Source: an uncultured Flavobacteriales bacterium
GTDB lineage: Bacteria > Bacteroidota > Bacteroidia > Flavobacteriales_G > Salibacteraceae
Direction of reading: 5' to 3'
Assembly: GCA_905479105.1 (NCBI GenBank)
Contig: CAJQLE010000001.1
Location: forward strand, 62,001 to 126,000
DNA: 64,000 nt
In this document: positions 48,481-64,000 of the stretch, piece by piece
How positions within the stretch are numbered: position 1 is the stretch's first letter
How the letters are laid out: each line of letters opens with the position of its first letter
Made by a program: the position numbers and the translations under genes
The notes under the pieces: model-generated
Database searches by the model: none
What the model saw: only the letters and a program-made list of their open reading frames with translations
What the model was told of the DNA's origin: nothing

Positions 48481-51400
48481 TTATCTACCAACGACAAACC
48501 TCTTTGTAATGAAACGTCCATCAGATTCAATATCCAATAAATAAATTCCTACTGCTACATCATTTATATCCAATTGGATTTCGCTCTGATCGATTTTAAA
48601 CCACTGCGATTGATCAAACTCTTTAACAAATTGGCCCGTGGAGTTTAAAAGATTGACTTTTAAGCCTTCATCAATTTTCCAATTTCCAAAATTTACATTG
48701 AGCCTATCTGAAGCTGGATTTGGGAAAACAGAAAGCTCATTGATCGCAAATGACTCCTTGATACCAATAGTAGCAGTATCGCAATCAAGAAGAGTAATAC
48801 TGATAGAATCAAATGTCTGGCAACCATTAATATCGCTGATGCTCACAAAGTAGACACCCGCACCAATTCCAATCAATGAATCGTTGGTAGACCCGTTGTT
48901 CCATAGAAAACTGTACGGAGCGGTGTTACCTTCTACCAACGCTGTAATAAATGCTGAACTGTCATCAGCACAAACAGAATCACTGGAAGCGCTTAGCAAA
49001 GTTGCATATGGTTCGGGTTCAGATATACTGATTGAGTCATTTACTGAGCATCCAGCTGCGGATGTAGCTGTTACGAAATAACTTCCTGGTCCTAGATTCG
49101 TGATTTGAGCAGCCGTATCGCCCGTATTCCAAAAATATTCATATAATCCATTCATTCCGGAAGATAATGCTGAAATAACTCCCGAACTATCACCTTGGCA
49201 TAAAATCTCAACGTCCTGAACGATTTCTAATTGACTTAGACTATCAAAGATCAAGACTGAGAAAAATGATGAATCGATATTTCCAGAACTATCTATGGCA
49301 TACAGTAAAACACTATTAAGTCCGATTTCATTGCATGTGAAATCTGTTTGACTCAACCAAATTGAATCTAAATCACAGTCAACTGTAGCACTGTCAGCTT
49401 GAGCTGATGATAGAGAAGCTGTTCCGTTGGCATCTAACCCTAAAGCTATCAGCTGAAAAGGATACACTGTTGGAGAAAAGGTGTCAAGAACAGTAACATT
49501 AATCTGAGTTGAGGACTGATTTCCTGAAATATCTATAGCGTTAAACGTCACCGTGTTTGTCCCAATATGTGAACAATAAAAGCTTTCTTGACTCAGCCAA
49601 ATACTATCAACACTGCAATTATCGAAGGTTCCTGCATTCGCTGAATCAACAGATATTGAGACATTTCCAGTTCCATCTAAGAAAACCGTAAGATTATTAG
49701 TAATAATAACCGGAGCTATCGTATCAAACACACTCACGGTAAAATCAGTTTGGCCGATATTTCCATTAATATCAATCGCAAATAGTGTTACCACATTGGT
49801 ACCCGTGTCGCTGCATTGGAAATCAATTTGATTGAGGTAAAGTGAGTCGATTCCACAAGCGTCAAACGACCCTCCATCAACAGAAGCCGGAGTAATTGAA
49901 GCTAAGCCAGAAAAATCTAAAAACAACTGAACATTGTTTGCAACTACGTTTGGAGAGATCGTGTCAAACACTGACACAAAATTGGCTGAAGAATCAATGT
50001 TTCCATTTACGTCAACAGCATAAAGCATCACTGGCTGAGGCACACCTATGTCGCTGCAATCAAAGTTATATCTGCTAAGGTACATCGTATCAATTCCGCA
50101 ATTATCAGAACTAGCCACATTGATGAACGCAGTGTCTATTGTAAATGATCCACTTGCATCTAAATAAATTGAAGTATCGGCAGATTGAATCAATGGCCCA
50201 ATGGTATCTGAGTTGGTTATTGAAATTGATGTTGTATCCGAACATCCATTACTGCTATTCACAGTTACGGTGTATGAACCAATTGACAAACCAGAAATGG
50301 CCTCTGTATTGGCAAGGTTACTCCAAGCATAAGTATAAGGTGCTGTACCTCCTACCACCGAAACTTGAGCAGACCCATCATTTGAGGACAGACAAGTGGC
50401 ATTAGAAAAAGATGAAATACTGGCTACCGCAGCTGTTGTAGCTGGAATAATATCTACTTGAGTAATATCGAAACATCCATTGATGTCTGTCACTGTTACT
50501 TCATACGTACCGATTACTAAGCCAATGATAGAAGATGTGCTCGCACCGTTGCTCCATGCATAGGAATATCCCGGAGTTCCTCCAGATGCTGATACCGATG
50601 CATCTCCATTATTACTTCCAACACAAATGGCATTGGTTGAACTCACGATAGACGCTGATACTGAGCTCGCTGGCTCAGAAATGGTAATTGATTGGGATGT
50701 TTGACATCCATTCGCATCCGATAGCGTTAATGAATAATTTCCTGCAGATAATCCGTTGACTGAATTGTTGGTTGAACCATTGTTCCAATTGAAAGCATAA
50801 GGAGCTGTTCCACCAGAACCAGAGGCTGCAGCAGACCCATCACTGCCACCGAAACAAGAAACATCAAAGGATGCACTAACTGAAGCCGCCAAAGGAGAAA
50901 CAGGTCCTGAAATCGTCAATGCGTCAATTATAGAACAACCATTACCATCCGTTGTCGTTACAGAATAACTTCCAACAGCTAATCCAGATATGCTTGCATT
51001 TGTGCTTCCGTTGCTCCACAAAAAAGAATAGCTTGGAGTTCCTCCCAAAACCGAGACTGAAGCCGACCCATCATTTCCTCCAAAACAATCAACATCTGCA
51101 GAAACAACTGAGGTTGAAAATAGTGTAGGTTCAGTTATCAAAACTGTTTCAACTATACTGCATCCATTAGCATCCGTAATTGTAACACTGTAAGTCCCGA
51201 CTGAAAGCCCAGTTACAGCAGCAGTAGTCTGTCCATCACTCCATAAATAAGAGTACGCAGGCACTCCTCCTGAGACTATAACTATAGCTGTGCCATCATT
51301 ACCAGCGTTGCATGTGACATTAGTTGATGATAATGCAGCTGACAATGCTGGTGGTTCGGCTATTGAAAAACTCGATGAGTCTGAACAGCCGTTGGCATCA

Positions 51401-54135
51401 GAAACGGTAACAGAATAATTTCCTACAGACAATCCAATTATTGATGGACCATTAGCGGAATTGCTCCAAGAATACGTATAGGGAGGCAATCCAGAAGAGG
51501 ATGATGCAACAGCCGAACCATTGTTTAAACCATTGCAGCTAACATCTGAAGACACTGCAGATATAGTTGGATTGCCATTTACGCTAATTACTGTTAAAGC
51601 TGAGTCGCTGCCGCAAGTATTTGAATATAAATATTGAATAGTATAGCTTCCTGTTCCCACAGAAACAGGGTCAAAAATTGAATCATTAGTTATTCCAGTT
51701 CCTGAAAACACTCCTCCACTTGGCGATGCATAATTAGCAAGAGAGATAGACGCGTCTCCTTCGCAAAGATTTGGGAAAGCGGAAAACGAAACATTCAGAA
51801 TTGGATCTACAACTAATTGAAATGTATCATATCCGTTGCAACCACTCGCAATGACAGAGTAAATAATTTGATGGGTACCTGGGCCCGCTATGGCTGGATA
51901 GAAAAAATTCAAAGAAACCCCAGGACCACTAAAGGTTCCACCAAAAGGCGAACCGTAAGGAGCTAATGGAAGGAACAATGTTGAAATACACTGCTTTGGA
52001 ATTGGAGTAATATTAACCAATGGGACCGCTGTCACAATAGCTGTGATGGAATCATCAGCCAAGCAACCCGCAACAGAATAATAAATAATATGCGTCCCAA
52101 CACCAGCTGCAGAAGGATCAAACACCGAGCCGATGACACCAGGTCCAATGTGCGTTCCGTTTTGAGGAAAACCATATCCAGCTCCAGATAAAGATATTGA
52201 CCCACCATTTTCACAAGCTGATATATTATTAATGAAGATGGTTGGGTTTTGATTTACTACAACAGTTTTAGTCACACTATCTGAACACGAATTCCCATCG
52301 GTATAAGTATATGTAACCAAATTGGTTCCCAAATTAGCAAGTGAAGGATCAAATATGCTGCCAGATATAACGGCAGAACCAGAGTATACTCCACCTAATG
52401 GACTTCCACCTTGAAGTGAAAATGCTACTTCGGTTTGACAAACTGCACTCAAATTTGAATGTGAAACGTTTGGCAAAGAATAAACCGAAATTGGGAGTAC
52501 GTTGCTAGTATCTTTACATCCTGCACTATCGACTATTACCGAATACGATCCAGAACTTAAAGCTGTGAAATTCGAAAATATCTCTCCTGGCATTGAGGCA
52601 CCATTAAAAAGCCATTGATAAGAGTAAAGACTATTGGTATCCGCCACAAGAAGAGCGCTTTCACTTTGACAAAAATTCACTTGACCATTAAAAGAATAAG
52701 CTTCTGCTTTTAACCTCGAACAATTTGCCAAACGCATTACAAAACCTTCTTGATTTGGACCGGCTGCGGTATTATTTCCAAAATCCATAACAGCATTAAA
52801 GTTTCCAACAACTAACATATTATCTAGATCAGAAGCAGCAGTGGCTCGAGCAACCTCTAAATCATTAGGAGCGCTCTCAGGAGCCCAAATAAAGCTCAAT
52901 GAATCTCCCTCATAATTATACCTCATGGCATATGGATTAAGATCACCAAATGGAGTGAGAGACAATCCCTGAAAAGACAATATATCGTTAAACGAAGACG
53001 CCATCAAGAAATTCCCAAAACCATCTACTGAAATTCCCATAGAATTGTTAATGCTCGAGTTTGTATTTACAAGCCATGCATCGTTTACATTTCCAGAGGT
53101 GTCACACTCAATTATCCAATCATTTACACCTCCTCCGAAAAGACTTTGAGCACCAAAAGCGATAATTCCCTCGCCATGTCCACAAATTAAAACTTTCTGG
53201 TTCTGATCAATGGCTATATCGGCTCCAACATCGGAGTTAACACCTCCACCTTTATTCAACCAAATCGGACTCCCTGTTAATCCATTAAGTTTTGCATAAA
53301 AGACGTCCTGCGCACCAAAAGAAGTGGTTGTAAACAAATCAATTTGAACACTTGTAGTAAAATTGCCAGTGACATAAACATTATTGTGATTATCAACTGC
53401 CAAACCTCCTAAGCCACTGCTAACCTGAAAGAAATTGAAATTACCATAAGAACCATTGGTAACGATTTGTTTAGCCCAAATAAGCGAACCAGATGAATCA
53501 TATTTAGTGACTAAATACTCGCTCCCGAGGTTTGAGGGAGCAAACTGCAGTGAATCAACATATAATGTATCCGCGAACTGTGTTAAAGCGTAAACAAAAC
53601 CTAACTGATCCGTTTTCACATCTAAAACCGTAACTAATGACTTACATAAATGAGGAACACCCCAAACTGCATTTCCTAAGTAATCATACTTTACTATAAA
53701 AGCATTATTTTGAAAAAAAGCTGGTGTACCTACAAATGGGGGTAAAACGACCGATCCAAATGTTGCTGAGCCTGAATAATTTCCTGTTACATATATATCG
53801 TCATAAGGACTGATGGCTACTGAATTTGCGCCATCGGTTCCTACTCCTCCTCCGGAAACTGCCCAAATGGGATCTCCTTGAGAGTTATATTTGACCAAAA
53901 ACATATCAAAGTTTCCAAATATTGAAGGAGTGCCTAAAACACTCAAAGGAGCGAAAGATACGCTATCAATAAAACTACCTGTAACGATGTAGCCCCCATC
54001 GGAGGTAAACTCCACATCATTCGAATACTCAACTGAAGCCCCAGATTGAACATTAACATCGATATCAAATTGAGAAAATACTTTCGTAACTGTAAACAGA
54101 AGCAATATAAAAACGACAAAAATCCTACAATTCAT
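48481..54135 (-). CDS. Giant modular type IX-secreted protein with SprB and HYR-like repeats
   Basis: The ATG at 54135 gives 1884 residues (the frame is open from a TTG 48 bases earlier). Signal peptide to about residue 22 (FSQ). Residues 25-480 are a propeller-like region with repeated GGxGxDxxxxxxxxxxDxxYVTGxF motifs (SBBP/beta-propeller type). Residues 570-850 have four repeats like PxGGxYSGxGVxxxxFDPxxAGxGTHxIxY. Residues 855-1309 hold six SprB repeats of about 76 residues (CxGxNDGSA, YxWSNG, GLSxGxYSVTVTDANGC). Then four HYR-like modules of about 80 (1310-1630), two more SprB repeats (1631-1782), and a C-terminal type A sorting domain (VFPNPASDRLNV, GIYLLDIE). It should reach the cell surface through the Gld/Por system, as an adhesin or gliding protein. 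Confidence 0.9.
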   Translation of the reverse strand: MNCRIFVVFILLLFTVTKVFSQFDIDVNVQSGASVEYSNDVEFTSDGGYIVTGSFIDSVSFAPLSVLGTPSIFGNFDMFLVKYNSQGDPIWAVSGGGVGTDGANSVAISPYDDIYVTGNYSGSATFGSVVLPPFVGTPAFFQNNAFIVKYDYLGNAVWGVPHLCKSLVTVLDVKTDQLGFVYALTQFADTLYVDSLQFAPSNLGSEYLVTKYDSSGSLIWAKQIVTNGSYGNFNFFQVSSGLGGLAVDNHNNVYVTGNFTTSVQIDLFTTTSFGAQDVFYAKLNGLTGSPIWLNKGGGVNSDVGADIAIDQNQKVLICGHGEGIIAFGAQSLFGGGVNDWIIECDTSGNVNDAWLVNTNSSINNSMGISVDGFGNFLMASSFNDILSFQGLSLTPFGDLNPYAMRYNYEGDSLSFIWAPESAPNDLEVARATAASDLDNMLVVGNFNAVMDFGNNTAAGPNQEGFVMRLANCSRLKAEAYSFNGQVNFCQSESALLVADTNSLYSYQWLFNGASMPGEIFSNFTALSSGSYSVIVDSAGCKDTSNVLPISVYSLPNVSHSNLSAVCQTEVAFSLQGGSPLGGVYSGSAVISGSIFDPSLANLGTNLVTYTYTDGNSCSDSVTKTVVVNQNPTIFINNISACENGGSISLSGAGYGFPQNGTHIGPGVIGSVFDPSAAGVGTHIIYYSVAGCLADDSITAIVTAVPLVNITPIPKQCISTLFLPLAPYGSPFGGTFSGPGVSLNFFYPAIAGPGTHQIIYSVIASGCNGYDTFQLVVDPILNVSFSAFPNLCEGDASISLANYASPSGGVFSGTGITNDSIFDPVSVGTGSYTIQYLYSNTCGSDSALTVISVNGNPTISAVSSDVSCNGLNNGSAVASSSSGLPPYTYSWSNSANGPSIIGLSVGNYSVTVSDANGCSDSSSFSIAEPPALSAALSSTNVTCNAGNDGTAIVIVSGGVPAYSYLWSDGQTTAAVTGLSVGTYSVTITDANGCSIVETVLITEPTLFSTSVVSADVDCFGGNDGSASVSVLGGTPSYSFLWSNGSTNASISGLAVGSYSVTTTDGNGCSIIDALTISGPVSPLAASVSASFDVSCFGGSDGSAAASGSGGTAPYAFNWNNGSTNNSVNGLSAGNYSLTLSDANGCQTSQSITISEPASSVSASIVSSTNAICVGSNNGDASVSASGGTPGYSYAWSNGASTSSIIGLVIGTYEVTVTDINGCFDITQVDIIPATTAAVASISSFSNATCLSSNDGSAQVSVVGGTAPYTYAWSNLANTEAISGLSIGSYTVTVNSSNGCSDTTSISITNSDTIGPLIQSADTSIYLDASGSFTIDTAFINVASSDNCGIDTMYLSRYNFDCSDIGVPQPVMLYAVDVNGNIDSSANFVSVFDTISPNVVANNVQLFLDFSGLASITPASVDGGSFDACGIDSLYLNQIDFQCSDTGTNVVTLFAIDINGNIGQTDFTVSVFDTIAPVIITNNLTVFLDGTGNVSISVDSANAGTFDNCSVDSIWLSQESFYCSHIGTNTVTFNAIDISGNQSSTQINVTVLDTFSPTVYPFQLIALGLDANGTASLSSAQADSATVDCDLDSIWLSQTDFTCNEIGLNSVLLYAIDSSGNIDSSFFSVLIFDSLSQLEIVQDVEILCQGDSSGVISALSSGMNGLYEYFWNTGDTAAQITNLGPGSYFVTATSAAGCSVNDSISISEPEPYATLLSASSDSVCADDSSAFITALVEGNTAPYSFLWNNGSTNDSLIGIGAGVYFVSISDINGCQTFDSISITLLDCDTATIGIKESFAINELSVFPNPASDRLNVNFGNWKIDEGLKVNLLNSTGQFVKEFDQSQWFKIDQSEIQLDINDVAVGIYLLDIESDGRFITKRFVVGR
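48780..49245 (-). repeat. SprB-type repeats 7-8
   Basis: Two repeats of about 77 residues (QGDSSGVISAL and ADDSSAFITAL types) with YFWNTGDT and FLWNNGST cores, separated from repeats 1-6 by the HYR-like block. They end just before the sorting domain. Confidence 0.8.
49246..50208 (-). repeat. Four HYR-like modules (about 80 residues each)
   Basis: Each begins DT(I/F)(G/S/A)P and contains a Leu-Asp-x-x-G segment, DxCxID/VDS, (Y/W)LSQ or YLxR, and ends AIDxxGN followed by VxVF/L. The fourth is shifted at its start. 963 bases / 4 = 241 bases per module. Confidence 0.8.
50209..51573 (-). repeat. SprB-type repeats 1-6 (about 76 residues each)
   Basis: 1365 bases / 6 = about 228 bases per repeat. 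Each holds C-x-G-x-(N/S)-(D/N)-G, an aromatic Y-x-(W/F) pair with WSNG or WNNG, GL(S/A)xGxYxVTxxDxNGC and ends near ITEP/SEP. Repeats are diverged, so slippage between them is less likely than in recent arrays. Confidence 0.85.
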
Positions 54136-54194
54136 AGATGAGTTATTAAAAAAGTGTCCACTTTTTAAAATTGCAGCTTTCAAATCAATTTGGT

Positions 54195-58256: not shown

Positions 58257-59589
58257 TTGATTTATTCTTTATCGCATTTGCAATAGGTTTGACGAAGCGA
58301 TCGATATCTCCCGCTCCTAAAACCAATACTACATCTGCATTTAACGATATTACGGCATTTAACAAGTCTGATTTTTGTACCAATTGCTTAGTTTTCAACG
58401 TGAGTTTATTCAAAAGATTCTCACTAGAAACGCCATCAATGGGTCTTTCACGGGCGGGATAAATCGGCAGTAAAATCACTTCATCAGCTTCTGATAAACT
58501 CTCTACAAAACCCTCTTCCAAATCTCTTGTCCGTGAGAATAAATGAGGTTGAAAAATGACAGCGACTTTCCTTCCAACGTATAACGTGCGAGCTGCCGTA
58601 AGCGCAGCCTTAATTTCTTCTGGATGATGCGCATAGTCGTCTATCACCACTTTTGTTGGTGTTTCTAAAATGCGCTCGAACCTGCGCTTAATACCCTCGA
58701 ATGATTCTATAGCCTTTGCAGCTTTATCTGCCTTAACATTCAGTTCCATTGCTAAAGAAATGGCAGCCGTAGCGTTCTCTACATTATGCTCACCCGCAAG
58801 CTTCAAAACATAGTGATCGCTTTCATTTACTGTAAAAGCAAAAGCTCCATTCACTACTTCAACATTCCCGTATTTCACTTCAGCCGTTGGCCCCTTTCCG
58901 TAAATACGCTTGTTTGGATGATCGAATATGTCTGCGATGTCTTCATGAACGATCAGAAGCTCAGCGCGACTAGCGAAGGTTTTGTAATCCTTCTTCATTT
59001 CTTCGAACGTCCCATAAATATCTAGGTGATCTGGATCTAAACTTGTTATCACGGCAATATTAGGATGCAATCTTAAAAAAGACCGGTCGTATTCGTCAGC
59101 TTCTACGACAACATAATTCGGTTTTCTGGTAGTGATTAAGTTTGAATCATATCCAGTCATTACACCACCAATAAAGGCTGCAATATCCCCTCGTGTTTCG
59201 TGTAATAGGTGAGCTGTTATGCCTGTAGTGGTAGTTTTACCATGGGTTCCAGCAATAGCAATGGTTTTTGTCTCTTTGGTGATCCACTCTAGCACTTCTG
59301 AACGTTTATACCATTGATTTCCCGTTGCTTCAACATATCCAAAAGCTATGTGATCAATAGGAACTGCAGGAGTATAAATGAACAAATCCGCGTCATCTAA
59401 TCCCTCTGAACTTTCGTCAAACCTCACATCGATTCCTTCCTCAATCAATTTATCAGTTAAAGAACTTGACGTTTTATCAAATCCTGAAACTTTAGCCCCC
59501 TTACCCTTGAAGTATCGCGCCAATGCGCTCATACCGATCCCTCCAATCCCGAGTAAATAAACCTTCTTAATATCCTTTAAATCCTTCAT
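58246..59589 (-). CDS. murC: UDP-N-acetylmuramate:L-alanine ligase
   Basis: The 447-residue ligase adds L-Ala to UDP-MurNAc. Visible motifs: LLGIGGIGMSALAR (Rossmann-like UDP domain, 12-26), the ATP loop AGTHGKTTTTGI (about 113-124), EADEYDRSFLR and DPDHLDIY, and DDYAHHPEEI in the C-terminal domain. All Mur ligase catalytic features are present. It overlaps murG by 4 bases and ftsQ by 11. Confidence 0.97.
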   Translation of the reverse strand: MKDLKDIKKVYLLGIGGIGMSALARYFKGKGAKVSGFDKTSSSLTDKLIEEGIDVRFDESSEGLDDADLFIYTPAVPIDHIAFGYVEATGNQWYKRSEVLEWITKETKTIAIAGTHGKTTTTGITAHLLHETRGDIAAFIGGVMTGYDSNLITTRKPNYVVVEADEYDRSFLRLHPNIAVITSLDPDHLDIYGTFEEMKKDYKTFASRAELLIVHEDIADIFDHPNKRIYGKGPTAEVKYGNVEVVNGAFAFTVNESDHYVLKLAGEHNVENATAAISLAMELNVKADKAAKAIESFEGIKRRFERILETPTKVVIDDYAHHPEEIKAALTAARTLYVGRKVAVIFQPHLFSRTRDLEEGFVESLSEADEVILLPIYPARERPIDGVSSENLLNKLTLKTKQLVQKSDLLNAVISLNADVVLVLGAGDIDRFVKPIANAIKNKSNVE

Positions 59590-60683
59590 TGAGCCAGGTT
59601 TATTATGTGTTGAGCTATATCTGATGCAGCGCTCGGAAGAGCGTGCTTTTTAATGTTTTCAGATAATAATGAACGCTTAGAAACATCTGTAACTAAGCTC
59701 AATATTTCTGGAACTAGATCTTTTGACGCATTCTTATCAGCTACCATAATGGCCGCTTGAGTTTGCACTAAGGCTTCTGCGTTTTTTGTTTGATGATCTT
59801 CAGCTGCGAAAGGGTAAGGAACTAAAACAGCGGGCTTACCTATGATACAAAGCTCGCTGACAGCAATTGCTCCAGCTCTAGAAATCACAATATCGGCAGC
59901 CGCATAAGCCATATCCATATCATAGATGAAATCCGTTATAACAAGAGGCTTGTCCTTACGAGTAACTAGTATTTGCTTTGATTCTTCTGCGAATAGGTTT
60001 CCTGTCTGCCAAATGACTTGAATACCGGCTCCAAGCAATTCGTCAATGCCATCTTTCAATGCTAGATTAATAGACCTTGCTCCGAGACTTCCGCCCACGG
60101 TTAGAAGTACAGGCTTAGTAGAATCGAAGCCATAATTCTTAAATGCCTCTTCCCGCTTCCCCTCGATTTCTACTACGTTTTTTCTAACCGGATTTCCTGT
60201 TTTCTCGATGCGAGCTTTTGGGAAAAATTTCTCCATTCCATCATAAGCAACACACACCTTGCTAACAGATGATGCTACCCATCGATTGGTTATTCCTGCG
60301 AAGGAATTTTGTTCTTGTATTAATGTGGGAATACCCATCCATGTAGCCATTCTCAATACCGGACCACTCGCAAAACCTCCTACGCCAACAACTACATCAG
60401 GTTTAAAATCCTTAATGACTGTCCTTGCCTTGACTAAACTTAATAGCAATTTGAAAGGAAACATGAGATTACTGATTGTCAGCTTCCGTTGAATTCCTGT
60501 GATATTTAATCCAATGATTTTGTATCCAGCGGCTGGAACCTTTTCCATCTCCATTTTACCTTTGGCTCCAACGAATAAGAACTCCGTATCAGGCAGACGT
60601 TCCTTAATTGTATTGGCAATTGCTATTGCAGGGAAAATATGTCCTCCTGTGCCTCCTCCGCTGATCATTACTTTAAGAGACAT
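59586..60683 (-). CDS. murG: Undecaprenyl-PP-MurNAc-pentapeptide GlcNAc transferase
   Basis: MurG (365 residues) adds GlcNAc to lipid I to make lipid II on the cytoplasmic side. The glycine-rich loops SGGGTGGHIFPA (8-19) and VGVGGFASGP (about 97) fit GT28, with LLTVGGSLGARSIN, the donor-site RAGAIAVSE and VPYPFAAEDHQ. Start ATG overlaps the ftsW end by 11 bases. Normal size. Confidence 0.97.
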   Translation of the reverse strand: MSLKVMISGGGTGGHIFPAIAIANTIKERLPDTEFLFVGAKGKMEMEKVPAAGYKIIGLNITGIQRKLTISNLMFPFKLLLSLVKARTVIKDFKPDVVVGVGGFASGPVLRMATWMGIPTLIQEQNSFAGITNRWVASSVSKVCVAYDGMEKFFPKARIEKTGNPVRKNVVEIEGKREEAFKNYGFDSTKPVLLTVGGSLGARSINLALKDGIDELLGAGIQVIWQTGNLFAEESKQILVTRKDKPLVITDFIYDMDMAYAAADIVISRAGAIAVSELCIIGKPAVLVPYPFAAEDHQTKNAEALVQTQAAIMVADKNASKDLVPEILSLVTDVSKRSLLSENIKKHALPSAASDIAQHIINLAQ

Positions 60684-61848
60684 GAGCCATTGGTTTATTG
60701 GTGAAACTCTTGTCTTCTTTATCAGCTCCTACGCTTACACTCAATATTATCCCAACAGCAAAGCAGGTAAACCAAATCGATGTTCCACCCATAGAAACCA
60801 TAGGAAGAGACTGACCTGTTACTGGAACCAAATTAACGGCAACAGCCATATTTATCATTGCTTGAAATACGAGACTAAACCCAATTCCAATAGAGAGCAA
60901 TGATCCGAATGTTCGTGGACAATCAAGGCCAATTTTTATTGCACGGAAGAGCAGAACCAAGTATAAAATGAGGATGAATATTCCACCAATCAATCCGTAT
61001 TCTTCCAATACAATGGAATAAATAAAGTCAGAATATGGGTGAGGCAAAAAATTTCTTTGTGTGCTCTTTCCAGGCATTTTACCGACTATTCCACCAGTAG
61101 CAATGGCAATTTTAGATTGATCACTTTGGTAACTCTGATTCATGCTAGATTCATCAGGAGAAACAAATGATTCTACGCGACTAATCCAAGTGTCCAGCCG
61201 ATTAAATGATCCAGGCAATGCTTTTCCAGTCATATATACCATGCCCAAAGCAAAAACGCCTGAAAGCATTAATAGGCCTAAGTGTTTCAATTGAACCCTG
61301 CCAATGAACATCAAGACCAAACAATTGATAAACAACATAGCAGCAGTAGACAAATCCGCAGGAAGTATGAGTCCACAGACAATAAAAACGGGTATAAGTA
61401 AGGGTAAAAATCCTCGCTTGAAATCCTTGATTTCATCTTGCCTGACCGCTAAAAAGCGCGCTACAAAAATGATCAGGGCTACTTTAGCCAAGTCGGATGT
61501 TTGAAAAGTTTGATTTATAACTGGAATGGTAAGCCAGCGATTTGCGCTATTAATACTCGTACCCATCAATAAAGTGACTAGTAAAAGTGGAATACTCACA
61601 TAAAGAGCCAATTGTGCAATCTTGGAGTAATAGGTGTATTTGATTCTATGTGCCAGGTACATTAACCCAAGCCCTGCCACAAGAATAAATCCATGTCGAA
61701 ACAAGTAGTAAAACGTATTGCCATCATGGTGACGATAAGCCAAGGTGACAATACTACTATACACCAACAACAAGCTCAGCACTGAAAGCAGCAGCATGAT
61801 CAGCCAAACTGGTCGATCTCCTTTTATATATTTAAGTAATGCTTCCAA
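60673..61848 (-). CDS. ftsW: Septal peptidoglycan glycosyltransferase FtsW
   Basis: The 391-residue SEDS protein has about ten membrane segments with family motifs GSINSANRWL-like (GTSINSANRWL), the LPADLSTAAMLFINC segment and EEYGLIGGIF. FtsW polymerises glycan strands from lipid II at the septum. The start is TTG, immediately after the stop of the MurD-C-like gene with no spacing; the next ATG is 17 residues downstream and would remove the conserved KGD(R/K) segment, so TTG is preferred. It overlaps murG by 11 bases. Confidence 0.93.
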   Translation of the reverse strand: MEALLKYIKGDRPVWLIMLLLSVLSLLLVYSSIVTLAYRHHDGNTFYYLFRHGFILVAGLGLMYLAHRIKYTYYSKIAQLALYVSIPLLLVTLLMGTSINSANRWLTIPVINQTFQTSDLAKVALIIFVARFLAVRQDEIKDFKRGFLPLLIPVFIVCGLILPADLSTAAMLFINCLVLMFIGRVQLKHLGLLMLSGVFALGMVYMTGKALPGSFNRLDTWISRVESFVSPDESSMNQSYQSDQSKIAIATGGIVGKMPGKSTQRNFLPHPYSDFIYSIVLEEYGLIGGIFILILYLVLLFRAIKIGLDCPRTFGSLLSIGIGFSLVFQAMINMAVAVNLVPVTGQSLPMVSMGGTSIWFTCFAVGIILSVSVGADKEDKSFTNKPMAHVS

Positions 61849-62364
61849 TTATTTTAAGCGCATTTCGCGAACAGCCTTTCTAAATGACTGTCCATTTTCT
61901 TTATAATGAGTGAAGTTTTCCAAATCATTGACTCCAGGTGAGAATAAAACAACATCACCACTTTCAGCAAGATCTCGAGCTGCAATTGCTGCATTCATAA
62001 TAGAGTCAACCTTAACGATTGGTTTATGCACCGCACGCATTGACGCTAAAACCTTATCATGATGCTGACCAGTAATCACGAATGCCTTGATGTTGCTGAT
62101 TTTTATCTCATTCATCAGTGCATAGTCATCTTCATCTGCTGATGAGCTCATGACCCATACCACCGGCATATCCATGCATTCTAAAGAGTACCATGTTGAA
62201 TTGAGGTCAGTAGCCTTTGCATCATTCACATATTCCACTCCATCAACAACATCAACAAACTCTAAGCGATGTTCGATATCGCCCATTCTACGCATACTTT
62301 GCTTTCTCGCATCAATGAGTCGTTCATTAACCTTTGCTTCCAGTATAGATGTTTGTGACTTCAT
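61849..62364 (-). CDS. Free-standing MurD C-terminal-domain-like protein
   Basis: This 171-residue protein aligns with the C-terminal domain of the MurD next to it. Over the segment beginning IEHRLE, I count about 26 identities in 44 positions, including the EHRLE, NDxKAT and NSTWYxLE motifs. It keeps K50 and T52 of the NDAKAT motif. It has lost the GGxDKG loop (here SSSADEDD, residues 73-80) and the SPACASFD motif (here SPGVNDLE, 142-149), which in MurD bind D-glutamate. It has no ATP-binding central domain. It is a duplicated and shrunken relative, between murD (11 bases away) and ftsW (adjacent). Catalysis is unlikely; a binding or regulatory role is inference. Confidence 0.8.
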   Translation of the reverse strand: MKSQTSILEAKVNERLIDARKQSMRRMGDIEHRLEFVDVVDGVEYVNDAKATDLNSTWYSLECMDMPVVWVMSSSADEDDYALMNEIKISNIKAFVITGQHHDKVLASMRAVHKPIVKVDSIMNAAIAARDLAESGDVVLFSPGVNDLENFTHYKENGQSFRKAVREMRLK

Positions 62365-62375
62365 GGAGTGATTGA

Positions 62376-63716
62376 TTACAGGTTTCTTACAGCTTCTTTA
62401 AATTGACGTCCACGATCTTCATAATCATCGAATAAATCAAAACTTGCGCAAGCAGGGCTTAGCAATACAGCATCACCTTTAACGCCAGCTTTATAGGCTT
62501 TGTAAACAGCCTCGCGCATAGTATCTACTTCGATAATTTGCTCAACATACGGTCCAAAAGCTTCAATCAACTTGGCGTTGTCCTTTCCTAGACAAACGAG
62601 TGTTTTTACTTTGGCCTTCACCATAGCGTCAAGCTGAGTATAATCATTGCCTTTATCTACACCTCCAGCAATCCAAACTACAGGCTGATTCATACTTTCT
62701 AATGCATACCAAGTAGAGTTTACGTTGGTTGCTTTTGAATCATTGATAAAAGAAATTCCATAAACATCATTCACAAGTTCAAGTCTGTGTTCAATGTTTT
62801 GAAAATCTGATAAACACTCTCTTATCAAATCTTTTCTTACCTCTAGTATTCTAGCTGCGATGCCTGATGCCATCGAGTTGTAGAGGTTGTGTTTGCCCTG
62901 AAGGGCGAGTTCTTGCATCGTCATAGTAAATTGGTTTTTATTTGGGTTAATGGTTATTTTATTGTCGTTTGCGAAGGCTGCTAAACCTTCATGATTCTGT
63001 TTTATTGAAAAAGGCGCTTTTTTTGCTTTTGATTCTATAGTTTTCATCACTTCACGCGTCACTGGATCATCTTCGTTATAGATGAACCAATCATCGCTGG
63101 ATTGATTTTGAGTGATTCGCATCTTAGCTCTAGCATACTTCATAAGGTCATATTCATACCTATCAAGATGATCTTCAGTAATATTCAATAGCATGGCGAT
63201 ATCACATTTGAAATCATACATACCATCCAACTGAAAACTGCTAATCTCAAGAACTACCCATTCGTATTTATCTCCTTCGGCAACTATTGCCGCAAGACTC
63301 TTACCGATATTTCCTGCCAGTCCAACGTTGATTCCTGCGCGTTGAAGAATATGATGCATTAGAAGTGCCGTAGTTGTTTTACCGTTACTACCTGTGATTC
63401 CAATGAACTTGGCTTTGGAATAACGTCCAGCAAATTCAAGCTCATTGATCACCGGAATACCTTTTTCTCTCAACTTCACTATCAATGATGCTGAATCAGG
63501 AATTCCAGGGCTTTTCACCACTTCATCTGCAGCTAGAATTTGATCAACAGAATGACCTTTTTCTTCAAACAGAATGTCATTATTTAAAAGAACGTTCTTA
63601 TACTTTTCCTTAAGTGCACCTGCGTCACTCACAAATACATCCCAGTCTTTTTGCTTCGCCAATAGCGCTGCTCCTACTCCACTTTCTCCGCCTCCAAGCA
63701 CGATCAACTTCTTCAC
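62376..63716 (-). CDS. murD: UDP-N-acetylmuramoyl-L-alanine:D-glutamate ligase
   Basis: MurD adds D-Glu to UDP-MurNAc-L-Ala. The GTG at 63716, which shares one base with the mraY stop (TAGTG), gives 446 residues starting KKLIVLGGGESGVG; a longer open frame from a TTG at 63773 lies inside mraY and is rejected. The ATP loop GITGSNGKTTTALL is around residue 105, the C-terminal EHRLE, NDSKATN, GGVDKG and LSPACASFDLF motifs are all intact. This is the functional copy compared with the 171-residue paralogue downstream. Confidence 0.97.
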   Translation of the reverse strand: MKKLIVLGGGESGVGAALLAKQKDWDVFVSDAGALKEKYKNVLLNNDILFEEKGHSVDQILAADEVVKSPGIPDSASLIVKLREKGIPVINELEFAGRYSKAKFIGITGSNGKTTTALLMHHILQRAGINVGLAGNIGKSLAAIVAEGDKYEWVVLEISSFQLDGMYDFKCDIAMLLNITEDHLDRYEYDLMKYARAKMRITQNQSSDDWFIYNEDDPVTREVMKTIESKAKKAPFSIKQNHEGLAAFANDNKITINPNKNQFTMTMQELALQGKHNLYNSMASGIAARILEVRKDLIRECLSDFQNIEHRLELVNDVYGISFINDSKATNVNSTWYALESMNQPVVWIAGGVDKGNDYTQLDAMVKAKVKTLVCLGKDNAKLIEAFGPYVEQIIEVDTMREAVYKAYKAGVKGDAVLLSPACASFDLFDDYEDRGRQFKEAVRNL

Positions 63717-64000
63717 TATCTCAGCTTTAATGTGATAATGCTGATCACAGCTAGCATAACTCCAATGATCCAAAAGCGAGAGACAATTTTGCTCTCATGC
63801 ATACCCTTCATTTGATAATGATGATGAAGAGGCGCCATGAGAAAAACTCTCCTTCCTTCACCGTACTTATTTTTAGTGTATTTGAAATATGCTACCTGCA
63901 AAACCACGGATAGATTCTCCACTAAAAAGACACCGCAAAAAATTGGAATGAGAAGTTCTTTCTTAATAGCAAGAGCAAATACGGCTATGATTCCACCAAT
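63716..64000 (-). CDS. mraY: Phospho-MurNAc-pentapeptide transferase MraY, C-terminal part
   Basis: The reading frame is open from the window edge (64000) to a TAG at 63716-63718, giving the last 94 residues. [25 protein letters not shown] and [25 protein letters not shown] are late MraY motifs, including the conserved HHH. MraY makes lipid I at the inner membrane. The gene continues beyond the window. It precedes murD in the normal dcw order. Confidence 0.96.

Follow-up and report, generated by a model that had tools for sequence, protein, structure and literature searches.

The window analysed here, a stretch of 64,000 nucleotides, carries between murD and ftsW an intact gene whose 171-residue product corresponds to the C-terminal domain of MurD and to nothing else. 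We show that this stand-alone gene encodes a conserved functional protein and is no debris, and it is very probably a selected, non-catalytic and separable module. Its product can be described as a pseudo-enzyme of Mur-ligase descent, and the family to which it belongs is real. As anticipated in a preliminary description of this DNA that had been made from the letters alone, no published account of the family was found; the freely readable journal papers searched contained no description of a stand-alone Mur ligase C-terminal domain, of a Mur pseudoenzyme or of a duplication in the dcw cluster of Bacteroidetes.

The end of the window is occupied by a minus-strand dcw cluster in the order mraY, murD, the 171-residue gene, ftsW, murG, murC, an ftsQ-like gene, ftsA and ftsZ, the names being taken from the translations (Table 1). 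The small frame runs from ATG to TAA with no internal stops. An interval of 11 bp separates it from the murD stop, the TTG start of ftsW (61848) follows directly after its TAA, and the GTG start of murD at 63714-63716 overlaps the stop of mraY, so that the earlier placement of the gene inside the operon, on the same strand and tightly spaced, was confirmed. Adjoining ftsZ, positions 48481-54183 of the minus strand hold a 1900-residue open reading frame whose translation reads as having repeats of the SprB type and a type IX secretion-like tail at the C-terminus.

Table 1. Features of the stand-alone gene and its neighbours (positions are those of the window)
Feature	Position	Strand	Basis
Stand-alone MurD C-terminal-domain gene, 171 aa	61849..62364	-	ORF, BLASTP against own MurD, Pfam/NCBIfam, AF2, Foldseek
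N-terminal helix, residues 2-30	62275..62361	-	DSSP on AF2 model (confidence lower, 55-78) and alignment
EHRLE, residues 31-35, holds R302 equivalent, retained	62260..62274	-	Alignment
NDAKAT, residues 47-52, D317/K319/T321 equivalents, retained in window gene	62209..62226	-	Alignment
SSSADEDDY, residues 73-81, in place of MurD GGVDKGNDY; K348 to D	62122..62148	-	Alignment
SPGVND, residues 142-147, in place of MurD SPACAS; S415 to D, Ser-Pro retained	61924..61941	-	Alignment
murD, complete canonical ligase, 446 aa	62376..63716	-	TIGR01087 407 bits, profile positions 2-440; translation
ftsW, downstream neighbour in linked loci	60673..61848	-	ORF and gene order
mraY, 3' part, cut by window end	63716..64000	-	ORF; complete in homologous loci
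murG	59586..60683	-	ORF; homologous loci

Compared by BLASTP with the MurD of the same window, the small protein showed 55 of 166 identical residues (33%, E 7e-34) in a match spanning MurD residues 284-449 only, and a recount of the segment EHRLE...PVVW in this alignment reproduced the 26 of 44 identities given previously. Mur_ligase_C (PF02875) was its sole Pfam match (30.5 bits at a gathering cut-off of 28.4, positions 1-125 of 127); the scores of some distant stand-alone members fall just under that cut-off. The murD equivalog TIGR01087 scored 99.2 bits at profile positions 295-440 only and its cut-off of 211.95 was not reached. Neither MurD_N nor Mur_ligase_M (PF08245) was detected in the protein by Pfam, in agreement with the reported lack of an ATP domain, while the neighbouring full MurD has the ATP-binding middle domain, which in MurD is marked by the P-loop GxxGKS/T and a carbamylated Lys. 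The AF2 model (pLDDT 87.6, pTM 0.77) consists of a helix followed by the MurD C-domain fold; the helix is the counterpart of the linker helices at the boundary between the middle and C-terminal domains of MurD, where it is four residues longer. When the model was searched with Foldseek against solved structures, the best 33 matches were all MurD (E about 1e-10, TM 0.66-0.75).

The window protein is accordingly a Mur_ligase_C domain protein by Pfam that lies outside MurD by score, by the ATP domain and by the D-Glu contacts. With the C-terminal domain of MurD (PF02875; TIGR01087; PDB 1UAG, 4BUC, 7SY9) it shares the fold, the sequence identity and the HRxE and ND(S/A)KAT motifs, but it is a separate protein without N-terminal and ATP domains, has K348 and S415 replaced and stays far under the family cut-off. 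MurT of the MurT-GatD complex (PDB 6GS2, 6H5E, 7Q8E) is likewise derived from a Mur ligase, acts in a complex and was matched by the model in the fold search; however, MurT retains the Mur ligase middle domain and the ATP site and is not a free C-domain. Pfam and NCBIfam detected neither Mur_ligase_M nor the MurT C-terminal domain in the 171-residue protein, and its gene is flanked by murD and ftsW, whereas gatD would be expected beside a murT. A weak Foldseek match (E 1.4e-4) was obtained to chain 8qma_O from the RNA polymerase complex of plant plastids. This chain may be the MurE-like subunit PAP11, in which case it would set a precedent for a scaffold of the Mur type. PAP11 is a MurE-like relative of the Mur ligases that serves as a structural subunit outside cell-wall synthesis; unlike the window protein it is MurE-derived, larger and found in an unrelated context.

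E. coli MurD, whose sequence was checked against PDB chains, served as ruler for individual residues; its T321, K348, S415 and F422 touch a glutamate-like ligand (PMC3527612). Aligned to it, the window gene has Asp at the positions of both K348 and S415 and retains R302, D317, K319 and T321, together with the motifs EHRLE, NDAKAT and STWYSLE that had been noted as kept (as EHRLE, NDxKAT and STWYxLE). The previously proposed loss of the K348 and S415 contacts thus holds for the window gene, but unevenly for the family, most members of which have lost K348, a few retaining it, while many still have S415. After weighting for relatedness, 128 stand-alone domains gave kept fractions at catalytic or ligand residues of 0.35 for K319, 0.49 for T321, 0.52 for R302 and 0.54 for S415, all of which are 1.0 in MurD, while core positions were conserved (P411 1.0, S410 0.94, D317 0.92, F429 0.88). 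Judged from this pattern of variable catalytic residues and conserved core positions, the stand-alone family is one in which the fold has been retained and the chemistry lost. With the ATP domain missing and the D-Glu site degenerate, the protein cannot be a ligase on its own.

The retention of D317 (0.92) and N316 (0.79) while other catalytic residues go would fit a ligand sensor, in which the leftover pocket binds nucleotide, UDP-MurNAc-peptide or Glu and reports the supply of precursor to the membrane step. The new residues in the close clade of the window gene are uniform and non-random, all 12 members having Asp for S415 and Ser in place of the second Gly of GG, which would fit as well. 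On the other hand, R302, K319, T321, K348 and S415 differ between families, so that no common ligand site is evident, and in MurD it is mainly the middle domain, absent from the stand-alone protein, that binds the nucleotide. We consider a sensor improbable.

The stand-alone copies of family f13 retain all of R302, D317, K319, T321, K348 and S415, and constraint in this family is reversed, with a dN/dS of 0.012-0.025 (about 0.015) in the stand-alone gene compared to 0.12-0.14 (about 0.13) in the C-domain of its own MurD. Both features would suit a catalytic C-domain that complements MurD in trans by swapping into it for a variant reaction, for example with another amino acid. However, most of the family, the window gene included, does not carry this full set of residues, the MurD of the linked genomes is complete and has a C-domain of its own, and the copies of family f93 (see below) are degenerate, which makes such a domain swap very improbable. 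The slowly evolving f13 copies that retain K348 and S415 are found at loci L151, L153, L154, L157, L161 and L163-L165.

Orthologues with 43-75% identity occupy the same slot in every genome of the same genus for which the contig was available, which excludes a chance occurrence. Stand-alone matches, which the preliminary description had proposed to look for beside murD and ftsW, were found in about 20 families of Bacteroidia, with a separate short copy in at least 80 of 396 near-complete, evenly drawn genomes of the class and in at least 58 of 247 in a smaller even draw; almost all of these copies occupy the slot between murD and ftsW. Both figures were counted by hand from tables after contig breaks and matches inside other Mur ligases had been removed, and they are lower bounds because genomes with a single match were left unopened. 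Among the carriers are the metagenome-assembled genomes Salibacteraceae M30B54 and Flavobacteriales UBA1993/UBA6057. None of 89 genomes from the phylum's other classes had a stand-alone copy, nor did the remaining Bacteroidia of the same phylum sample, many of which are complete or nearly closed, and absence from these Bacteroidia may be part of the reason why the gene has gone undescribed. The gene is missing from approximately 80% of Bacteroidia, and there are genera in which some species have it and others do not, indicating that it is not essential to the MraY/FtsW system as such.

Patchy presence in some genera is also what a functionless, decaying partial duplication would show, and the protein evolves faster than MurD in most lineages, the dN of the stand-alone domain usually being 2-5 times that of the MurD C-domain. 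Occurrence in one genome only, or relaxed selection, had been named beforehand as the signs of such decay, and neither was seen: apart from the distribution given above, dN/dS was 0.01-0.28 in all pairs with unsaturated dS, far under 1 and indicative of purifying selection, the frames are intact, a single old clade extends over about 20 families, and 60 of the 61 genomes of f93 retain the gene. Decay has a negligible probability, and we regard both decay and chance as ruled out by dN/dS, intact frames and distribution.

The tree with MurD C-domains that had been suggested separated 77 stand-alone domains from 93 MurDs with two label changes, and a second tree likewise gave two. With a longer alignment, the 29 sampled copies from outside f93 formed one clade (support 99/84) that was present in 98% of the bootstrap trees. 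As these copies group together and separately from every MurD, a single old partial tandem duplication of murD in Bacteroidia is likely and, followed by losses, is the simplest history, and the trees support the partial-duplication origin from the murD C-domain first proposed from the window. Several independent duplications were also considered for this main set and are not supported, the copies forming one clade. The f93 copies fall outside the stand-alone clade in the best tree, and an AU test does not reject a single clade (p 0.247). At their N-termini (MTIxLLAKQG...YTNLAGR) they are similar to a segment from inside MurD (MTMQELALQGKHNLYNSMASG), which suggests that these copies may have arisen by truncation of murD in place; a SMAE...RK stretch in some of them resembles the f13 copies. 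The f93 copies may have a separate origin and hence a function different from that of the window gene.

Family f93, found via the odd genome G375, carries the stand-alone domain across 12 genera. In none of the 40 loci read is there a murD between mraY and ftsW; the stand-alone gene holds the slot, with flanking gaps measurable on both sides in 38 of the 40. The MurD of this family is encoded away from the cluster and is about 30% identical to canonical MurD, and all 14 of the f93 MurDs aligned have E182 and R348, the pair that sets L-Glu specificity in Xanthomonas MurD2 (PMC8788868). Several of these MurD2-type enzymes are fused behind MurL, and murL is the neighbouring gene in L265 and L270. 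From these sequences, f93 appears to have swapped the D-Glu route for MurD2/MurL, i.e., L-Glu ligation followed by epimerisation, a pathway that a 2021 review places only in some Proteobacteria and Actinobacteria (PMC8788868). MurD2, the MurD type of f93, is like the window product in having an altered K348 position, but it is a complete and active three-domain L-Glu ligase (PMC8788868), whereas the window product consists of one domain and lacks an ATP site. In the f93 genomes of loci L194/L195 and L257-L271 the route often takes the form of a MurL-MurD2 fusion of about 890-1140 residues with E182/R348. The stand-alone gene of f93 is under purifying selection (dN/dS 0.04-0.25). Since f93 retains it after replacing the canonical enzyme, gene content shows the stand-alone domain to be independent of an adjacent canonical murD, and whichever origin applies, a MurD C-domain is retained in this family without its enzyme.

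The linked loci that were read have mraY, murD, the stand-alone gene, ftsW and murG in this order; the median gap is 13 bp on one side of the stand-alone gene and 14.5 bp on the other, and some frames overlap. Where the gene is absent, murD adjoins ftsW with a median gap of 15.5 bp, and in E. coli these two genes overlap by 1 bp. The slot directly before ftsW is held by the stand-alone gene in linked and in f93 loci alike. In G076 (L158, L159) the dcw cluster is broken on both sides, with mraY and murD on one contig and the stand-alone gene and ftsW on another, and murG is not downstream of ftsW.

Derivation of the domain from MurD and its adjacency to murD in the linked loci outside f93 would suit a trans-acting partner or regulator of MurD, the free C-domain docking on the middle domain of MurD or dimerising with its C-domain so that closure, stability or feedback is tuned, with the f93 copy adapted to MurD2. 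Mirror-tree analysis speaks on both sides of this proposal. In partial Mantel tests against MurD, FtsW, MraY and MurG, all 59 loci together gave MurG and MraY as the best correlates and a negative partial correlation with MurD, whereas MurD came out best, with a partial correlation of 0.15-0.26, when f10 and f13, the two fast families, were left out together with two divergent loci; the ranking is unstable. When MurD and the stand-alone protein of L034 were folded by AF2 as one chain, the stop codon being read through solely as a modelling linker, each part folded with no confident relative placement (pTM 0.66), and thus no confident interface was obtained. Moreover, f93 retains the gene although murD has gone from the cluster and the MurD2-type enzyme is unlinked and distant in sequence, and in G076 the stand-alone gene stays with ftsW and not with murD. 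We therefore hold a MurD partner to be rather unlikely. Of the two functions offered in the preliminary description, the MurD regulator is weakened by f93, and a scaffold near FtsW appears to fit the gene order better.

Our best explanation as a whole, which we judge to have an even chance of being right, is that the stand-alone protein serves the MraY/MurG/FtsW step as an adaptor or regulatory subunit without catalytic activity. Binding is the most plausible mode of action for a lone non-catalytic domain conserved over such a range, and we infer that this pseudo-ligase, a single domain that goes back to the Rossmann-like C-terminal domain of MurD, may bind other proteins in an adaptor or regulatory capacity. 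The ancestral surface of the MurD C-domain would be presented to MraY, MurG and FtsW, the membrane-step proteins whose genes lie around the stand-alone gene, and the synthesis or hand-over of lipid I/II would thereby be organised or regulated. Because the place beside mraY and ftsW persists when murD leaves, the MraY/MurG/FtsW module is the candidate partner, an assignment we make with slightly less than even confidence; the kept position may in part reflect operon inertia. A Mur-domain adaptor at MurG would have a precedent, since MurG has been reported as a docking partner of the Mur ligases MurE-MurF (PMC6420597). In the Bordetella MurE-MurF fusion with its MurG scaffold, Mur proteins likewise dock on MurG and the cytoplasmic and membrane steps are coupled, but both halves of the fusion are active enzymes and no stand-alone pseudo-domain is involved (PMC6420597).

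Taken at its broadest, the sequence evidence suggests that the end piece of MurD probably has a second, non-enzymatic role in cell-wall assembly. We speculate, with some doubt, that this could be a non-catalytic docking role of the MurD C-domain toward MraY, MurG and FtsW that was split out in Bacteroidia, possibly twice, the second split possibly being an in-place truncation of murD after catalysis had passed to MurD2-MurL. If this is true, the ordinary MurD of other bacteria, an essential enzyme and drug target that is viewed as a simple cytoplasmic ligase, may share the docking role. A catalytically dead MurD end domain that is maintained by selection through much of one bacterial class and retained when the enzyme is replaced by an L-Glu type amounts to a natural separation-of-function experiment, and a soluble protein of 171 residues offers a handle on whether Mur enzymes form complexes with the membrane machinery.

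A few further variants were observed. G400 carries two diverged stand-alone copies in tandem between murD and ftsW (L193:3564-4641). Among full-length MurDs, those of L025 and L155 (f10) and of L049, L051 and L075 (Ignavibacteria/Kapabacteria) have His or Asp in place of K348 and Lys at A414, reading SPACKSFD or TPACKSFD, so that the Lys has possibly been relocated. Unlinked and more divergent additional stand-alone copies lie outside the dcw cluster at L166, L167 and L168 (f6), L169 (f46), L160 (f42) and L196 (f10), and the one at L166 adjoins an aldehyde dehydrogenase gene.
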